From: Tolumonas osonensis
GTDB lineage: Bacteria > Pseudomonadota > Gammaproteobacteria > Enterobacterales > Aeromonadaceae
Reading direction: 5' to 3'
NCBI RefSeq assembly: GCF_014202415.1
Contig: NZ_JACHGR010000002.1
Span: 124,001 to 188,000, forward strand
Length of the DNA stretch: 64,000 nt
In this document: in pieces, positions 8,905 through 17,626 of the stretch
Numbering within the stretch: the first letter of the stretch is position 1
Layout: every line of letters starts with the position of its first letter
The notes under the pieces: model-generated
Seen by the model: only the letters and a program-made list of their open reading frames with translations
What the model was told of the DNA's origin: nothing
Databases searched by the model: none
Position numbers and translations under genes: made by a program

Positions 8905-9954
8905 TTAAAGTTCCGGTGGCTGTTGCTTGGCATTAGTTAGTGTTGGTGGTCGATAGTTGAACTTAGCGTCTCGCCAGCGCATCCAGACACTTTCATCAAT
9001 AGTGACGTTGACCGCAGGGAGTCCTTTATTCCCCGTGGCGTATCGTCTGAAATATCGACCATCTCCCGAGGTTGTTATCTTGCGGAACCATGCATATGCA
9101 CCGTTCAGAAATTGTTTGAATGAATCTGTTGGAGGGCTCTTCCAGGCATCGCTGGCGGCCTTGAATTCATCCAGCTTCAGACCAGCATTTGCAGCTCGAT
9201 TCAGGATCCACTGCAAAGGGAGATCGGCAAGAGGATCGGCTCCATAGCCCCCGCCAACGTTGGCGTGCGCGCCGATGAACCAACGCTGTTCCACCTCAAT
9301 GTTTTCTGGTTTCTTTTCGCCGTTGGCGCTGGTCCAAAGAGCTACATCATAGGCAGCTCTATGCTCATCCAGTGCAACTGCATGATAAGCACGCTCCACA
9401 ATGCTGGAAAGTTCAGTATCGTGCCATGCATATGTGCCTTTTTCGGATAATAACGTTCCTGGTATCCCCAATGCACCTACGGTATCCCATACCCCGATAA
9501 AGTGGATCTTTGGTTGGTGGCTATAGTTCTTTCTGAAGTCTTCGCAGACCTTATTGGTCGGAGGCAAGCTCTTATCCCGGTAGATTTTTTCGGCCTTATC
9601 TAACAAACCCGGGGTGACAACATGTAGCAGACCACATTTTCGAATTAACCCAACGAGACTTCTTGCCGTATAAGCCCCCCGACTAAATCCAAAGACCCAT
9701 ATTTCATCTTCATCCGCATAACGCTTTGCAAGCCACTCGTATCCTTGGTGTAAATTCTTGCTAAGGCCGTAACCGAAGACACCACCTCTGAAGCGATCCA
9801 GCGTAGACGTGCCAACACCGGGATCATAGAAGAACCTCTGTCTTACATCACCGTCATAATCACGAATGAGTCGTGAAATCCGATAAACGTTTGTTTGATC
9901 TTCCGGATCATTCCAGGTGCCGTCGAACAGGATGATGAGCCTTTGTTTGGTCAT
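8905..9954 (-). CDS. DUF2235 alpha/beta hydrolase (T6SS Tle-like phospholipase domain)
   Basis: 349 residues starting MTKQRLIILFDGTWNDPEDQ, the usual DUF2235 opening, with the nucleophile-elbow motif GFSRGAYTAR near residue 90 and conserved HVGVWDTVG-like and GAHANVGGGY segments. The domain is shared with Tle type VI phospholipase effectors, but many stand-alone members are uncharacterised. There is no signal peptide, membrane segment, VgrG or immunity gene nearby. GGAGG lies 4 bases before the ATG. It follows the M15 peptidase gene by 38 bp on the same strand, implying one transcript that codes for a predicted lipid-cleaving and a predicted peptidoglycan-cleaving enzyme. Confidence 0.88.
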   Translation of the reverse strand: MTKQRLIILFDGTWNDPEDQTNVYRISRLIRDYDGDVRQRFFYDPGVGTSTLDRFRGGVFGYGLSKNLHQGYEWLAKRYADEDEIWVFGFSRGAYTARSLVGLIRKCGLLHVVTPGLLDKAEKIYRDKSLPPTNKVCEDFRKNYSHQPKIHFIGVWDTVGALGIPGTLLSEKGTYAWHDTELSSIVERAYHAVALDEHRAAYDVALWTSANGEKKPENIEVEQRWFIGAHANVGGGYGADPLADLPLQWILNRAANAGLKLDEFKAASDAWKSPPTDSFKQFLNGAYAWFRKITTSGDGRYFRRYATGNKGLPAVNVTIDESVWMRWRDAKFNYRPPTLTNAKQQPPEL

Positions 9955-10866: not shown

Positions 10867-11005
10867 CTGTTTTCATAAAAACCAAATATTTATCTACCAT
10901 TAAATAAATCCATTTATATCAATAATATAGCTTTTATTTGCCATCGGTGGTGGCTATTAAAAAATAGTCGTATCAGTAAATTGAACAATTCAGGCAAGCC
11001 TTGTG

Positions 11006-11027
11006 CATATTTGTACATAACGATATG
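11006..11027 (+). promoter_or_regulatory. Possible ModE-type site before modA
   Basis: TACATAACG (11014-11022) equals one half of the E. coli modA ModE box; the other half is poorly kept, though CATAT...ATATG flank it symmetrically. Position, 23 bp before the modA ATG, suits repression by molybdate-loaded ModE. No modE gene is in the window. Confidence 0.3.
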
Positions 11028-11049
11028 TGAAATGCGCCAAGGAGTGCCT

Positions 11050-11805
11050 ATGTTGTCATTACGTAAGAATCAGCTCGCCACTGCTTTATTGCTGTTAACG
11101 CCATGCCTTTCTTTTGCTGATGAAGTCAAGGTTGCGGTTGCGGCCAACTTTGCTAAGCCACTCGAAGAAATCGGAAAATCCTTCCAGAAAGATACCGGAC
11201 ATACCCTGCTGATATCCTCCGGTGCGACCGGCAAGTTATTCGTTCAGATTCAGAATGGCGCACCATTTGAAGTCATGGTGAGCGCAGACAGCAAGACCCC
11301 GGGAAAGCTGGTTAAGGAAGAACTGGCATTGGCGGATACACAATTTACCTATGCAAAAGGCAAATTGGTGCTGTGGTCGGCGAATGCAAATACCGTTGAT
11401 AGCAAAGGTGAGGTACTGAAAACCGGTAACTACGCTCATCTGGCGGTCGGTAATCCCAAAACGGCACCTTATGGTGCAGCGGCTTATGAAGTACTGGAAA
11501 AGCTGGGGCTGATGGCTACTGTGAAATCCAAATTTGTTCAGGGTGAAAACATTACGCAGGTAAAACAATTCGTTGAGACCGGTAATGCAGAATTGGGCTT
11601 TGTCGCCGCTTCGCAGGCCTATAAAGACGGCAAACTCATCCAGGGCTCTGCCTGGGAGGTACCTCTCGATATGTATAGCCCACTGACTCAAGATGCAGTG
11701 TTACTGAAGAAGGGGACGGATAATCCTGCAGCAACCGAACTGTTGAATTACCTCAAAGGCGACAAAGCAAAAGCCATTATTCATAGCTACGGCTATATCG
11801 ATTAA
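11050..11805 (+). CDS. modA: Molybdate ABC transporter, periplasmic binding protein
   Basis: 251 residues with a Sec signal peptide cut after LSFA, then DEVKVAVAANFAKPLEEIGKSF. The oxyanion-binding segments of ModA are visible: AANF, SSGATGKL and APFEVMVSAD. The protein captures molybdate (or tungstate) in the periplasm and hands it to ModBC. The ATG at 11050 has AAGGAG 5 bases upstream; the longer in-frame start at 10981 would bury the signal peptide. The next gene is a molbindin, but modB and modC do not follow, so the permease must be coded elsewhere. Confidence 0.93.
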   Translation: MLSLRKNQLATALLLLTPCLSFADEVKVAVAANFAKPLEEIGKSFQKDTGHTLLISSGATGKLFVQIQNGAPFEVMVSADSKTPGKLVKEELALADTQFTYAKGKLVLWSANANTVDSKGEVLKTGNYAHLAVGNPKTAPYGAAAYEVLEKLGLMATVKSKFVQGENITQVKQFVETGNAELGFVAASQAYKDGKLIQGSAWEVPLDMYSPLTQDAVLLKKGTDNPAATELLNYLKGDKAKAIIHSYGYID

Positions 11806-11850
11806 GTGGCAGTTATTACCAATAGAACGATAACAGAAAAGGAGATTTTT

Positions 11851-12279
11851 ATGGCTATCAGTGCTCGTAATGTATTTGCAGGAACTGTACGTGAGATTCG
11901 TGAAGGTGCCGTGAACGCAGAGGTTTCACTGTCAGTTGGTGGTGGCGATATTATTGTCGCTACCGTGACATTAGATAGCCTGACGGCGCTGGGATTAGCG
12001 GCAGGCAAGGCCGTAACTGCCTATATTAAGGCACCATCAGTCATGTTAGTGACAGGCGATGATTCGACCAAATACAGCGCCCGTAATCACCTGAAAGGTT
12101 CTGTGGCCGAAGTAAAAACCGGTGCAGTGAACAGCGAAGTGGTCGTTAAGCTGGCTGGCGGCCATGATGTAAAAGCCATTGTGACTAATGAGGCCGTTAG
12201 CGAACTTGGCCTAAGTGCTGGTTCAGCTGCGGGTGTCTTGTTTAAAGCCGGCAGCGTGATTCTGGGTGTTTCTGCCTGA
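11851..12279 (+). CDS. Molbindin with two Mop (TOBE) domains, ModG-like
   Basis: 142 residues made of two tandem Mop repeats (about 4-70 and 73-141), each opening SARN-F/H-GTV and ending with a KAPSVMLVTG or KAGSVILGVS strand. This length and layout match ModG of Azotobacter, a cytoplasmic protein that stores or buffers molybdate as an oligomer. AAAGGAG precedes the ATG at 11851; the upstream in-frame ATG at 11806 lacks one. It lies 45 bp after modA and is probably co-transcribed, tying uptake to storage. Confidence 0.9.
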   Translation: MAISARNVFAGTVREIREGAVNAEVSLSVGGGDIIVATVTLDSLTALGLAAGKAVTAYIKAPSVMLVTGDDSTKYSARNHLKGSVAEVKTGAVNSEVVVKLAGGHDVKAIVTNEAVSELGLSAGSAAGVLFKAGSVILGVSA

Positions 12280-13838: not shown

Positions 13839-14056
13839 GAAACAACCCTGTTCAGAATTCATTAAAGGTGCATTATAAATGCTTTTTAATGATGTGTGTT
13901 GTTTTTCTGTCCAAATTTGCAGAAGCATTTGCTAACGGGATGATACGATCAATTCATTGTTATCGTTGCTGATTTACTGGCACAAATGTATCAGTCTGAT
14001 TGGGCTATGCTTGTATTGGGTCAGGGTTTCCTGTTCAATATCGGCAAATATTTTAT

Positions 14057-14068
14057 TGCATATGCTAC
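14057..14068. promoter_or_regulatory. TTGCATATGCTA palindromic motif before DUF134 gene
   Basis: The palindrome GCATATGC (14058-14065) sits 15 bp before the DUF134 ATG, just ahead of its AAAGGAG. The same 12-base motif occurs twice at 15841-15885. The position fits an autorepressor site. Confidence 0.5.
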
Positions 14069-14080
14069 AAAGGAGTGTTT

Positions 14081-14362
14081 ATGGGACGTCCTAAGATCCC
14101 TCGGAATATTTGTGGTAAACCCGCAGATAGCTGCTTTAAACCGAATGGTATTCCTATGAGTAATCTGGAACGGATTGAATTGGCTCCTGACGAGTTTGAA
14201 GCATTGCGGCTAGTTGATTTGCAGGGAATGCTGCAACAGGATGCAGCCGTTGTGATGGGCGTATCCCGGCAGACATTAGCGAATCTGGTTAAGGCGGCAC
14301 GGTGCAAAGTGGTTGATTGTCTGGTACATGGCAAGGCGCTGATGATGCATCAGGCGGGTTGA
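14081..14362 (+). CDS. DUF134 (UPF0251) helix-turn-helix protein
   Basis: 93 residues with the family opening MGRPKIPRNI, two cysteines (ICGKPADSC), the segment LAPDEFEALRLVDLQGMLQQDAA and a sigma-70 region 4-like HTH (GVSRQTLANLVKAARCKV). DUF134 proteins are poorly characterised putative regulators that, as I recall, often neighbour NifX-like dinitrogenase cofactor proteins; one is present at 16049. The conserved Cys residues could bind metal or sense persulfide. ATG 14081 follows AAAGGAG. The gene is 26 bp ahead of the persulfide dioxygenase gene, so it probably heads that operon and controls it. Confidence 0.9.
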   Translation: MGRPKIPRNICGKPADSCFKPNGIPMSNLERIELAPDEFEALRLVDLQGMLQQDAAVVMGVSRQTLANLVKAARCKVVDCLVHGKALMMHQAG

Positions 14363-14388
14363 ATTTACTGGTCTGTCGGGGAGGTACT

Positions 14389-15252
14389 ATGAATCCACAG
14401 GTCCATGCCTTTTTCGATGATATTACGTTTACGTACAGTTATGTCGTGGTTGACCCAGGATCTGGAAAATGCGCATTAGTTGATTCCGTACTGAATTACG
14501 ATCAGTCCTCCGGACGAACCTCATTAACTGCGGCAAACCGGTTAATTGAGTTTGTAAAAGCAAATAATCTGCAGGTGGAATGGCTGCTTGAGACCCATGT
14601 CCATGCTGATCATTTAAGTGCGGCCTCTTATCTGAAGACGATGTTTGGCGGAAAGCTGGCGATAGGCGCGAATATCACGGTAGTTCAGAACACGTTCGGA
14701 AAACTCTTTAACGCCGGTAGCGATTTTGCGGTTGATGGCAGTCAGTTTGATCACTTGTTCCACGACGGTGAAATTTTTCAATTGGGGGGAATCACCGCCC
14801 GCGCGATGCATACCCCCGGTCATACACCGGCCTGTATGACTTATGTGATTGGTGATGCAGCATTTGTCGGTGACACATTATTTATGCCTGACTATGGCAC
14901 GGCACGCTGTGATTTTCCCGGTGGGGATGCGGCAACGCTGTATCAATCAATCCAGAAGCTGTTTTTGCTGCCGGATGAAACACGGGTTTTTATGTGTCAT
15001 GACTATAAAGCCCCAGGCCGGGATCATTTCCTGTATGAAACCACGATCAGGGAAGAAAAAAATCATAATGTGCATGTGCACTGTGGCATTCAACAAGACG
15101 CATTTGTGGCAATGCGTAAAGCCAGAGATGCCACATTAAAGATGCCGGCACTGATCCTGCCAGCAGTTCAGGTCAATATGCGGGCCGGTGAATTACCACC
15201 GGAAGAAGAAAACGGTATTCGTTATCTTAAAATTCCACTGAACAAAATTTAA
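14389..15252 (+). CDS. Persulfide dioxygenase-like metallo-beta-lactamase fold protein (ETHE1/Blh type)
   Basis: 287 residues. The metal motif is H70-V-H72-A-D74-H75 in ETHVHADH, with further ligands in HTPGHTPAC and GDTLFMPD. The segment DYGTARCDFPGGD is the mark of the ETHE1/Blh branch, iron enzymes that oxidise glutathione persulfide to sulfite and relieve sulfide stress. ATG 14389 is preceded by GGGGAGGT. It is co-directional with the DUF134 gene and a half-size TauE/SafE exporter. In Xylella and Agrobacterium, blh and a TauE-like gene are under the ArsR-type regulator BigR, which is absent here; DUF134 may replace it. Confidence 0.88.
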   Translation: MNPQVHAFFDDITFTYSYVVVDPGSGKCALVDSVLNYDQSSGRTSLTAANRLIEFVKANNLQVEWLLETHVHADHLSAASYLKTMFGGKLAIGANITVVQNTFGKLFNAGSDFAVDGSQFDHLFHDGEIFQLGGITARAMHTPGHTPACMTYVIGDAAFVGDTLFMPDYGTARCDFPGGDAATLYQSIQKLFLLPDETRVFMCHDYKAPGRDHFLYETTIREEKNHNVHVHCGIQQDAFVAMRKARDATLKMPALILPAVQVNMRAGELPPEEENGIRYLKIPLNKI

Positions 15253-15329
15253 CCAGGGAAACATCGTTCAGCAATAACACGCGTAAATTGTGATACCATA
15301 ACCCCATCAATAACAGGGTTTATAGTGAA

Positions 15330-15701
15330 ATGATGCTATTGTCAGGTCTAATGCTGATAGGCTTATCAGCGGGTATTTTGTCCGGACTGTTTGGCATTGG
15401 CGGTGGCGTTTTGATCGTTCCTGCCCTGATGTACGGACTTGGTTTCAGTCAGAAACTGGCAACAGGAACCAGTCTGGCTATTCTGTTACCGCCCGTCGGT
15501 ATTGCCGCAGTGATGGAATATTACCGGCATGGCGCTGTGAATATTAAAGCCGCCATGGTCATTGCCATCATGGTTGTCCTCGGAAGCTGGCTGGGCTCAA
15601 AGTTTTCTGTAGGCATGGACCCGGCTACGATGAAGCTACTCTTCGGTGTTTTTTTAATCCTCCTCGGGGGATACATGATTTATGATGCAATGTCCGGTTG
15701 A
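15330..15701 (+). CDS. Half-size TauE/SafE-family membrane protein
   Basis: 123 residues with about four membrane helices. The opening SAGILSGLFGIGGGVLIVPAL and the GTSLAI segment are the TauE/SafE repeat, but full-length members have two such halves (about 250 residues); this one has a single half and would need to dimerise. TauE proteins are linked to export of sulfite and organosulfonates, so it could remove sulfite made by the preceding persulfide dioxygenase. The gap to that gene is 77 bp. Two adjacent ATG codons are possible starts. Confidence 0.82.
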   Translation: MMLLSGLMLIGLSAGILSGLFGIGGGVLIVPALMYGLGFSQKLATGTSLAILLPPVGIAAVMEYYRHGAVNIKAAMVIAIMVVLGSWLGSKFSVGMDPATMKLLFGVFLILLGGYMIYDAMSG

Positions 15702-15713
15702 ACATTCAACCGG
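15694..15713. repeat. Perfect hairpin at the end of the TauE gene
   Basis: CCGGTTG / CAACCGG (extendable by two pairs) overlaps the stop codon. No T-run follows, so it may be an mRNA end-stabilising hairpin rather than a terminator. Confidence 0.45.
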
Positions 15714-15766
15714 CTATTCCTGCCTATCGAATTTCCTTTTCTCATCAATCAAATTCATTATCAAAG

Positions 15767-15829
15767 AGCCTGTTCTGACAACGCTATCTCAGTAATGGTA
15801 CCGATGTCGGGCAGGCTTTGTCTTTTTCC
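15767..15829 (+). terminator. Possible intrinsic terminator after the TauE gene
   Basis: AGCCTGTTCTGAC and GTCGGGCAGGCT can pair imperfectly around a long loop, followed by the T-rich run TTGTCTTTTTCC. The long loop lowers confidence. Confidence 0.4.
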
Positions 15830-15840
15830 TTTCAAATATA

Positions 15841-15885
15841 TTGCATATGCCAATTAACGGTATTATAGTTTGCATATGCTAATTA
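15841..15885. promoter_or_regulatory. Direct pair of TTGCATATGCYAATTA motifs
   Basis: TTGCATATGCCAATTA (15841-15856) and TTGCATATGCTAATTA (15870-15885) differ at one base and start 29 bp apart, close to whole helical turns, so two dimers could bind the same DNA face. They lie 163 bp before the NifX-like gene. The 12-base core recurs before the DUF134 gene. Confidence 0.55.
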
Positions 15886-16048
15886 TTGCCGTTCCCGATT
15901 TTCTGGATGTGAATGTTTTGAAAGGCAATGTCGCGTCAGGGGATGGCAGTAATTGGCTGCATCAGGTCATAACTCGTTGCTGTAATTTGCAGGAAGTTAC
16001 CAGGATCGGGAAAGACCACTCCGTTATTTTGTTATAGAGGTACGTCCG

Positions 16049-16597
16049 ATGATTACTGCTATTCCTATGAAAGAAGATCGTGTCGCCAGTCATTTTACTA
16101 AGGCTGACAGCTTTGTTTTTGTTAATGAAAACGGTGACGTCTTATCCCGTAAGGCAAACCCTGCGCTGAATGCAAATTGTTCCGGCAAAAAAGATTTACT
16201 CGACATGCTGCAGGCTGAAAATGCGCAACGGGTTATTGTCCGGAATATCGGTGAACGGATTCTCGGCAAATTGCTCGAAAGTCAGTTTGCTGTATATCAG
16301 ACCCGCTGTGGCCGCCAAAGTGTAAAAGAATTGGTTAGTGAACAGGCTGACAAGTTGACGCACATGACCAGTCCATCACAAGGTCGTCAATCATTGAACT
16401 ATGAAGCTAAGCAGGCCAACGGTGGATGTGGCTGTGAGCACGAAGGGCATGAAGGTCGTCAATCTTGCTGCGGTCATGACGATAAAGGTCATTCACATGA
16501 ACATGTTCATCAGCATGGCGCTGGCCGTTGTTGCCAAAGCCGCGACGATGCACAGGTTGCAGGGCGTGGTCATGGCCGGGGGCGTTGCTGCCATTAA
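16049..16597 (+). CDS. NifX-like (dinitrogenase Fe-Mo cofactor family) protein with Cys/His-rich tail
   Basis: 182 residues. Residues 1-105 follow the dinitrogenase iron-molybdenum cofactor biosynthesis fold (ITAIPMKEDRVASHFTKADSFVFV...NIGERILGKL), a small ribonuclease-H-like domain that binds Fe-S or Fe-Mo clusters. From residue 120 on, the tail is packed with cysteines (four CC or CGC clusters) and about ten histidines, ending GRCCH, and looks like a metal-binding or storage extension. No nif structural genes are in view, so a role outside nitrogenase is likely. It follows the double TTGCATATGCYA motif and may belong to the DUF134 regulon. Confidence 0.85.
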   Translation: MITAIPMKEDRVASHFTKADSFVFVNENGDVLSRKANPALNANCSGKKDLLDMLQAENAQRVIVRNIGERILGKLLESQFAVYQTRCGRQSVKELVSEQADKLTHMTSPSQGRQSLNYEAKQANGGCGCEHEGHEGRQSCCGHDDKGHSHEHVHQHGAGRCCQSRDDAQVAGRGHGRGRCCH

Positions 16598-16642
16598 TTT
16601 GGACAACGGCTGAGGAACTATCAGCTGAGTAATCAATGATGT

Positions 16643-16666
16643 TCAGGAAGGCGAAAGTCTTCCTGA
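16643..16666 (+). repeat. Hairpin between NifX-like and thioesterase genes
   Basis: TCAGGAAG / CTTCCTGA forms a perfect 8-bp stem around an 8-base loop. Without a T-run it may be a processing or stabilising hairpin inside a shared transcript. Confidence 0.35.
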
Positions 16667-16684
16667 TCTGAATGTAGGAATAGC

Positions 16685-17128
16685 ATGAAAACTTATCAGG
16701 CATGTCTGCAAAGTCATGCACATTGTGTGGTATGCAGTGATGGCAATACGAATCCGCATTCACTGCAACTTCGCTTTGAGCTGGTCGCTGAAAACGAAGT
16801 AACGGCAGAGTATCAGGTCGATAAAAAACATCAGGGATACACCGATTTGTTGCACGGCGGCATAGCCAGCACCTTACTGGATGCCGCGATGACGCACTGT
16901 TTGCTTTCGAAAGGTATTGAAGCGCTGACCGCAGAGCTGAATGTGCGTTTCCACACACCCATTTTAGTGGGGGATACAGTACAGATCATTGGCCATCTGA
17001 TCAGTCAGCGGCGAGGCATTTATCTGTTAGAGGCTACCTTGTCTGTAGCGAAGCAAGTGTGCGTTAAGGCGACAGGTAAATTCATTCAACCCAAAGGGGG
17101 AGTGATCCATCGTGAGTTGCCAATTTGA
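16685..17128 (+). CDS. PaaI-like hotdog-fold thioesterase
   Basis: 147 residues with a hotdog fold. The active-site helix reads LLHGGIASTLLDAAMTHCL, the HGG motif typical of PaaI/YbgC-like acyl-CoA thioesterases, followed by ELNVRFHTPILVGD. Two Cys-containing segments near the N-terminus (HCVVCSDG) are unusual and could bind metal. It follows the NifX-like gene by 87 bp and precedes the rhodanese gene; a thioester or persulfide-linked substrate would fit this sulfur context, but that is a guess. Confidence 0.82.
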   Translation: MKTYQACLQSHAHCVVCSDGNTNPHSLQLRFELVAENEVTAEYQVDKKHQGYTDLLHGGIASTLLDAAMTHCLLSKGIEALTAELNVRFHTPILVGDTVQIIGHLISQRRGIYLLEATLSVAKQVCVKATGKFIQPKGGVIHRELPI

Positions 17129-17305
17129 ACTGACAGTTATTTGTGATAACTATGCCGGGCATTGCACTGGTGATAATGTTATCGTCATGCTGCGTGAAAA
17201 CTTGCGGGATACCGCAGTCGGTCAGTTCTGTGCTGGTATGCATATAGGAACCGGAGAAAGAGTTTCAGATAACGGGATCCATCGATAACACAGGAATAAA
17301 AAAAT

Positions 17306-17626
17306 ATGTTCAGAGCATTTTTATTATTTACAGCATTAATAGGCAGTTTCACGGTCAGCGCCAAAGAGTGGCTGATTGATGTCAGAACCGCCGCTGAATA
17401 CACGATTGAACATGCAGATGGCGCAACTAACATCGAGTATCAGCAGATAGTGACCGGTGCACAGCAAGCCGGGATCGAAAAACAGGATACCGTACGTCTG
17501 TATTGCCGGTCAGGCCGCCGGGCGGAGATCGCCAAAGAGTTGTTAATGCAGAATGGTTATCAGAAAGTGGAAAATCTGGGATCGTTGCAGGAAGCGAAAA
17601 ACTCGCGTGTCGTTTCTGAGCGTTGA
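17306..17626 (+). CDS. Periplasmic single-domain rhodanese (PspE-like)
   Basis: 106 residues: a signal peptide (MFRAFLLFTALIGSFTVSA) and one rhodanese domain with the catalytic loop CRSGRRA, the Cys carrying the persulfide. PspE-type enzymes move sulfane sulfur from thiosulfate to cyanide or thiols in the periplasm. It is the last gene of a co-directional run with sulfur functions. Its own promoter probably lies in the 177-bp gap before it, where I see no clear motif. It ends convergent with a methyltransferase gene. Confidence 0.88.
   Translation: MFRAFLLFTALIGSFTVSAKEWLIDVRTAAEYTIEHADGATNIEYQQIVTGAQQAGIEKQDTVRLYCRSGRRAEIAKELLMQNGYQKVENLGSLQEAKNSRVVSER

Follow-up and report, generated by a model that had tools for sequence, protein, structure and literature searches.

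A palindromic motif that accompanies DUF134 genes and its proposed role as operator of a metal-sulfur and reactive-sulfur regulon

A cluster of genes in a 64,000-nucleotide stretch of the Tolumonas osonensis genome (positions 124,001 to 188,000 of contig NZ_JACHGR010000002.1, hereafter the window) encodes a protein of the DUF134 family and carries three copies of a palindrome of about 20 base pairs (bp), one in front of the DUF134 gene and two in tandem in front of a gene for a NifX-like protein. Comparison with other genomes established this predicted operator, its tie to DUF134 and its neighbors, and the palindrome is very probably a DNA switch that is read by DUF134. As judged from the sequences, it adjoins genes in two phyla whose products are a metal-sulfur protein and enzymes of reactive sulfur. 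On balance, these observations are probably best explained if DUF134 is a helix-turn-helix (HTH) repressor that acts on a metal-sulfur/reactive-sulfur regulon via this palindrome.

Occurrence of the palindrome with DUF134 genes

The original prediction had described a motif directly 5' of the DUF134 gene and twice, 29 bp apart, 5' of the NifX-like gene, and this arrangement was borne out. The 12-mer TTGCATATGCYA had three exact matches in the window (14056-14067, 15841-15852 and 15870-15881) and no fourth, with 29 bp from start to start between the copies at 15841 and 15870, while none was present in 100 dinucleotide shuffles of the window. The 20-bp pattern TNNNTDGCATATGCHANNNA recovered the same three window sites at an expectation of 0. 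The 8-base core GCATATGC alone was not significant, with four occurrences versus 2.1 expected, a number that was reached by 15 of 100 shuffles; the fourth core, at 9092, is located within a long open reading frame (ORF) and is devoid of the flanks. In the host genome (3.29 Mb, 30 contigs) the strict 20-mer was found at three sites, all in the DUF134 cluster, and with up to one mismatch at eight sites versus two for the backward control. The consensus of the 20-bp palindrome in Gammaproteobacteria is about TAWWTDGCATATGCHAWWTA, and the Tolumonas loci L029, L109 and L113 have a single site directly 5' of DUF134, like the window.

Conservation of the motif near the DUF134 genes of relatives, on which the original prediction had been staked beforehand, was found in two families of Gammaproteobacteria and also in a second phylum. 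The loci compared comprised 28 from the window's family, a set that was later widened, and 65 from named genomes, three of these Desulfobacterota; for the gammaproteobacterial set, three of the 93 stretches that had been chosen for a pair alone were set aside, which left 90, or 85 without near-duplicates. A weight matrix built on sites with the exact core yielded 153 sites in 76 of the 90 gammaproteobacterial DUF134 loci (71/85 after removal of near-duplicates) and no site in the reversed sequences of the 93 stretches (1.05 Mb). Since this matrix derives from the loci that it was scored on, the tests of presence and absence were made with plain patterns, with the search for DUF134 and the search for the motif run on the same genomes of each group. 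In the window's family, the tandem core pair was present in 15 of 75 genomes, comprising 15 of the 25 with DUF134 and none of the 50 without it (Fisher's test, p = 1.4e-9). The Vibrionaceae, the family of Vibrio ruber, exhibited the motif in 81 of 94 genomes with DUF134 versus 3 of 56 without (137 versus 3 sites, p = 2.7e-24). In the Desulfobacterota, the phylum of a Desulfobulbaceae metagenome-assembled genome (MAG), the variant TTATNARCATATGYTNATAA with at most one mismatch was detected in 20 of 68 genomes with DUF134 versus 4 of 130 without (p = 2e-7); 24 of its 32 sites were located 4-30 bp 5' of the DUF134 match, and the four exceptions without DUF134 were all one-mismatch matches. A palindrome scan in this phylum, with a consensus derived from the same loci, reached a score of at least 16 in 17 of 33 loci versus at most 15 in reversed controls. 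Among 369 genomes from across the Gammaproteobacteria, 14 matched DUF134 at E ≤ 0.001 and six, the window's own included, were over the cut-off, which is too few for a co-occurrence test; the exact core was present in one of five loci from four of these six genomes.

Two side observations concern variation in number and sequence. The cores 5' of DUF134 differ between the Desulfobacterota loci L190, L191, L178 and L181 (GCATATGC, ACATATGT, TCAAATGA and GAATATTC), which offers a way to read the specificity residues of DUF134. A relative of the window's genome (G065, with loci L109, L110 and L111) encodes three DUF134 proteins, has six tandem pairs and could thereby serve as a natural test of cross-talk.

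Tandem sites and the proposed promoter

After removal of identical contexts, 59 distinct gammaproteobacterial pairs were kept, for seven of which the direction was assigned manually according to the gene strand, and the spacing was 28 or 29 bp in 52 of them. Read toward the gene, TTGCAT or TTGGCA is found within most copies of site 1, and a hexamer of the TATA type is located directly 5' of site 2 or at its edge. In the upstream half of site 1, the T that makes the TTG of this proposed -35 element was present in 30 of 59 cases versus 10 of 177 among the other three half-sites. Within the 52 pairs spaced at 28 or 29 bp, a spacing of 28 went with TTGGCA (14 G, 4 T) and a spacing of 29 with TTGCAT (26 T, 6 G, 2 A; p = 7e-5 in Fisher's test without the two pairs having A), so that the spacer would stay near 17. 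Because of the asymmetry of the half-sites and this covariation, the pairs seem to overlap a promoter beyond what an AT-rich spacer would give, which makes a repressor of its own gene the most likely role of DUF134. Polymerase binding would scarcely be possible once both sites are occupied, from which we infer repression.

The DUF134 protein, its neighbors and the window cluster

The start of the DUF134 protein is most likely at 14081. Its Pfam matches were DUF134, Sigma70_r4_2 and, below the cut-off, HTH_29, and its AlphaFold model had a mean pLDDT (predicted local distance difference test) of 90.5. The best 50 Foldseek matches of the model were mostly sigma4, DeoR and RcsB/NarL-type HTHs, none at E ≤ 0.001, while a sequence search for a solved DUF134 structure returned only distant HTHs and an ArsR-type winged helix appeared neither among the Pfam matches nor among the best 50 of Foldseek. 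DUF134 was found in bacteria as well as archaea among the control genomes, and the nearest relative, in a Tolumonas MAG, was 97% identical. Of 66 distinct gammaproteobacterial DUF134 proteins, 45 possessed Cys11, Cys18 and Cys80, ten were without only Cys80 and 11 followed other patterns; none of the three residues was present in the five DUF134 proteins of distant members of the class.

Neighbors were counted within 6 kb of DUF134 in 72 distinct gammaproteobacterial loci, which remained of the 85 after exclusion of 13 in which no DUF134 ORF had been called. The NifX-like gene, which had been tied to DUF134 from the window alone, proved to be the commonest neighbor (42/72), followed by genes for the thioesterase (26/72), a Fur-like protein (13/72) and a CoA-disulfide-reductase/rhodanese (12/72). 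Rarer neighbors were NqrM (7), metallo-beta-lactamase-fold (MBL) proteins (5), AhpD (4), DsbB (4), half-size TauE (3), TDT (3), ModA (2), peroxiredoxin (1) and a PspE-like rhodanese (1). The gammaproteobacterial reductase neighbor (569 amino acids) matched the persulfide reductase Npsr over its full length (PDB 3nta, 2e-238). Among the eight Desulfobacterota regions examined in detail, L243 exhibited the order DUF134, NifX and reductase-rhodanese with a half-size TauE gene nearby, and L236 carried a second perfect operator 6 bp 5' of the called reductase start and 3.4 kb from the one of DUF134 itself. The best match of both reductases was the Npsr of Archaeoglobus fulgidus (6pfz; 1.4e-134 for L243 and 4.9e-152 for L236). 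Together with the gammaproteobacterial loci, these regions place a NifX-domain protein plus a persulfide reductase beside DUF134 in two phyla. A check of the gene next to DUF134 across the Desulfobacterota, made with simple ORF calls, left 17 of 30 loci usable and did not enter the counts. In the Mangrovibacter loci L049, L056 and L058, DUF134 is accompanied by tandem sites that lead the NifX gene; a ZraSR-like two-component pair precedes in L049.

The tails of 49 distinct relatives of the NifX-like protein contained a median of seven Cys and nine His residues, often with CGC and CC motifs, and a few were without His; some tails are too long since some starts were overcalled. Assignment of the window protein to MrpORP (NF041136) was rejected at 25 bits versus a cut-off of 450. 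The leader in front of the NifX-like gene was present in seven copies, the window's included, in five genomes of the genus, each beside the gene, with the other six being 83-89% identical and exhibiting frame-breaking indels. A predicted hairpin starts at the expected transcript start. A riboswitch was considered and rejected, with no Rfam family at the gathering score in five sources and only four sub-threshold microRNA matches at a lax setting. Covariation among the seven copies was not convincing, as the two pairs changed on both sides were reached in 247 of 500 shuffles and the score in 33 of 500.

Profile searches confirmed the gene names first given to the cluster (PF02001, PF00753, PF01925 for the second profile half only, PF02579, 4HBT and PF00581) with one exception. 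The MBL protein encoded at 14389-15252 had also been called Blh, a bifunctional enzyme, which did not hold, as the protein scored 388 bits versus a cut-off of 625 for NF040641 and covered only positions 141-422 of the 423 in the profile. Instead, it matched structures of the persulfide dioxygenase type end to end (PDB 9g8t, 3.8e-131; 4ysk, 2.1e-119, which we take to be a PpPDO2-type persulfide dioxygenase; ETHE1 4chl, 1e-21) and is by sequence a persulfide dioxygenase of the ETHE1/PDO type. The thioesterase gene would share a transcript with the NifX-like gene. Between the thioesterase and the rhodanese genes, 17100-17301 holds a remnant of an MBL-fold gene that has lost about 700 internal bp compared to the longer copy in L113. 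Genes for molybdate-binding ModA and a Mop/TOBE-like protein (10981-12279) are located shortly 5' of DUF134, with malate:quinone oxidoreductase encoded between on the other strand, and ModA and Mop genes likewise lie 5' of DUF134 in L110. The predicted genes and sites of the cluster are listed in Table 1.

Table 1. Predicted genes and sites of the DUF134 cluster (window coordinates)
Feature	Position	Strand	Remarks
Single 20-bp palindromic site (predicted operator) before DUF134	14052..14071	.	end 9 bp 5' of ATG; exact 20-mer pattern, 0 expected
DUF134 regulator, 93 amino acids	14081..14362	+	sigma70-region-4-like HTH; Cys11, Cys18, Cys80; PF02001 80.3 bits versus gathering cut-off 27
Persulfide dioxygenase-type MBL protein, 287 amino acids	14389..15252	+	26 bp 3' of DUF134; PF00753
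Half-size TauE/SafE-like protein, 123 amino acids	15330..15701	+	PF01925 80 bits, profile 129-237 of 237, second half only
Tandem-pair site 1 (predicted operator)	15837..15856	.	contains proposed -35 TTGCAT 15841-15846
Proposed -10 TATAGT	15864..15869	+	17-bp spacer from TTGCAT 15841-15846; missing from stricter consensus scan
Tandem-pair site 2 (predicted operator)	15866..15885	.	over expected transcription start
Conserved, probably non-coding 5' leader of NifX-like gene, about 160 nucleotides	15879..16048	+	between site 2 and gene start; fold z -1.88
NifX/IssA-type protein with Cys/His-rich tail, 182 amino acids	16049..16597	+	PF02579 43.9 bits versus cut-off 26.3
Hotdog thioesterase, 147 amino acids	16685..17128	+	PF03061 (4HBT), TIGR00369
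PspE-like rhodanese, 106 amino acids	17306..17626	+	PF00581; candidate regulon member only

Proposed mechanism, alternatives and known systems

In the proposed mechanism, DUF134 as a small HTH repressor would bind the palindrome of about 20 bp (here TAWWTDGCATATGCHAWWTA) and repress its own gene together with a metal-sulfur/reactive-sulfur regulon. At many targets, the first of two palindromes 28 or 29 bp apart would coincide with the -35 and the second would lie over the transcription start, so that occupation of both would shut the promoter. The host regulon seems to consist of this cluster only, in which a single operator would precede DUF134, persulfide dioxygenase and half-size TauE, and the tandem pair the NifX-like gene and thioesterase. 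Sulfane sulfur, or an altered metal or Fe-S state, would reach Cys11, Cys18 and, in many of the proteins, Cys80 and release DUF134, upon which a sulfur-detoxifying enzyme and the Cys/His-tailed NifX-domain protein, which would hold metal-sulfur clusters, would be made. Sulfane sulfur is a first guess at the inducer that we hold only tentatively, with metal or Fe-S state as its main rival, and the persulfide part is plausible on the strength of Npsr-type enzymes rather than of persulfide dioxygenase.

A number of observations weigh against this mechanism. The loci scored with the weight matrix were also its training set, 14 of the 90 gammaproteobacterial DUF134 loci were without a site (nine of them named Vibrio), the tested variant TTATNARCATATGYTNATAA was absent from 48 of the 68 Desulfobacterota genomes with DUF134, and the p values imply more independent events than there are, because the genomes and loci are related. 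At the proposed promoter, 50 of 52 pairs carry a -10-like hexamer next to site 2, yet a control on the opposite strand returned 27 of 52, so that AT richness accounts for part of this signal, and the stricter consensus promoter scan listed no promoter at the window pair. The persulfide link of the original prediction drew support mainly from the Npsr-type reductase, which accompanies DUF134 in either phylum, and less from persulfide dioxygenase, which neighbors DUF134 in only 2 of the 72 distinct gammaproteobacterial loci. Furthermore, 10 of the 12 gammaproteobacterial reductase loci belong to Shewanella, the others being one from Aeromonas and one from the window's genus. None of the three Cys residues was present in 28 of 33 Desulfobacterota DUF134 proteins; since most members of this phylum thus have the same operator without these residues, a Cys switch cannot be the ancestral sensor. 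Cys11, Cys18 and Cys80 may be a switch specific to the Gammaproteobacteria, with a shared ancestor that sensed otherwise.

Further points against a sulfane-sulfur signal favor an alternative that retains operator and repressor but takes metal or Fe-S status as the signal (Fe, Cu(I) or Mo), with the NifX-like protein as a store of metal or thiometallate and the sulfur enzymes carried along as metal and sulfide chemistry meet. This would suit the median of seven Cys and nine His in the NifX-like tail as well as Mangrovibacter L049, where DUF134, operators and NifX are followed by anfHDG (iron-only nitrogenase), which is annotated in this locus and assigned by clustering in L056. Molybdate-binding and MoeA neighbors in some DUF134 loci point in the same direction, including MoeA and Mrp/NUBPL in Desulfobacterota L242 and ModA and Mop nearby in the window and L110, as does the Fur-like gene in 13 of 72 loci. 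In sulfate-reducer transcriptomes, NifX-like genes are reported to move with iron-uptake genes (PMC5701242, PMC10533852). On the other hand, an Npsr-type reductase adjoins DUF134 in both phyla, and the DsbB, peroxiredoxin, TauE and persulfide dioxygenase neighbors indicate thiol/sulfur chemistry. We consider a metal signal a serious possibility, albeit a somewhat improbable one.

The remaining alternatives concern the role of DUF134 and of the palindrome itself. The resemblance of the HTH to sigma70 region 4 and the overlap of the upstream site with the proposed -35 would suit an activator, or a protein that both activates and represses from that site. This is unlikely, however, given that the second site lies over the expected transcription start and single sites are located directly 5' of the DUF134 start, a usual place for a repressor. 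It is very improbable that the palindrome belongs to another co-inherited regulator to which DUF134 is merely linked, since presence of the motif goes with that of DUF134 in two families as well as a second phylum, and one candidate, a Fur-like gene within 6 kb in 13 of the 72 loci, has no counterpart within this distance in the other 59. An origin by chance or as a repeat element would agree with the 8-base core, which alone is unremarkable in the window, but is refuted by the longer motif forms, with 0 in shuffles and 0 expected, and by all comparative tests, and its probability is negligible.

Small HTH repressors with a palindromic operator are a known kind, and the operator and regulon of DUF134 appear to be new; under the names DUF134, UPF0251 and COG1342, no paper on this family as a regulator was found in open-licence PMC, with subscription journals and regulon databases outside the search. 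BigR and SqrR are persulfide-sensing repressors of the ArsR family. By analogy, DUF134, which the original prediction had put in the place of BigR, would likewise act as repressor of genes for persulfide dioxygenase and TauE-type proteins, and a Cys pair might be involved, but DUF134 belongs to a different family (sigma4-like HTH, PF02001) and its commonest neighbor is the NifX-like gene. PpPDO2-type persulfide dioxygenase (4ysk) matches 14389-15252 end to end but is rare as a neighbor of DUF134. The nearest characterized relative of the NifX-like protein by plan is IssA of Pyrococcus furiosus, which likewise combines a NifX/NifB-type domain with a long tail and whose gene responds to the sulfur state (PMC5524996). 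Its tail is cationic, rich in Gly and aromatic residues and contains one Cys, whereas the window-type tail is rich in Cys and His and also has several Gly; the text of that article makes no mention of DUF134. Npsr is an NADH-dependent persulfide reductase of Shewanella loihica and A. fulgidus (PMC7969121; PDB 3nta, 6pfz), and no word beginning with "regulat" occurs in the text of that article, whereas in the present loci its gene is found with DUF134 operators, though outside the window cluster. Similar to the Orange protein (ORP) complex of Desulfovibrio, NifX-domain and Mrp/NUBPL-type proteins are encoded near DUF134 in L242 and L240 (the L240 ATPase was judged by eye), but sigma54 together with a cognate regulator, rather than DUF134, appears in the title of the ORP reference.

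In a wider and rather speculative reading, DUF134 would be an old family common to Gammaproteobacteria and Desulfobacterota that serves a combined sulfane-sulfur/metal-sulfur response, in which the operator core was kept while the flanks drifted by clade and the gammaproteobacterial branch gained a three-Cys sensor. The NifX-like target would then be a new Cys/His-tailed metal-sulfur store or chaperone that is made together with persulfide-removing enzymes. With the proposed mechanism, DUF134, so far a domain of unknown function, gains a predicted operator, a likely mechanism and a testable set of targets, and an orphan protein that combines a NifX domain with a metallothionein-like tail would be tied to the handling of reactive sulfur, which bears on how bacteria may keep iron-sulfur or molybdenum-sulfur clusters safe as sulfide and persulfide rise.

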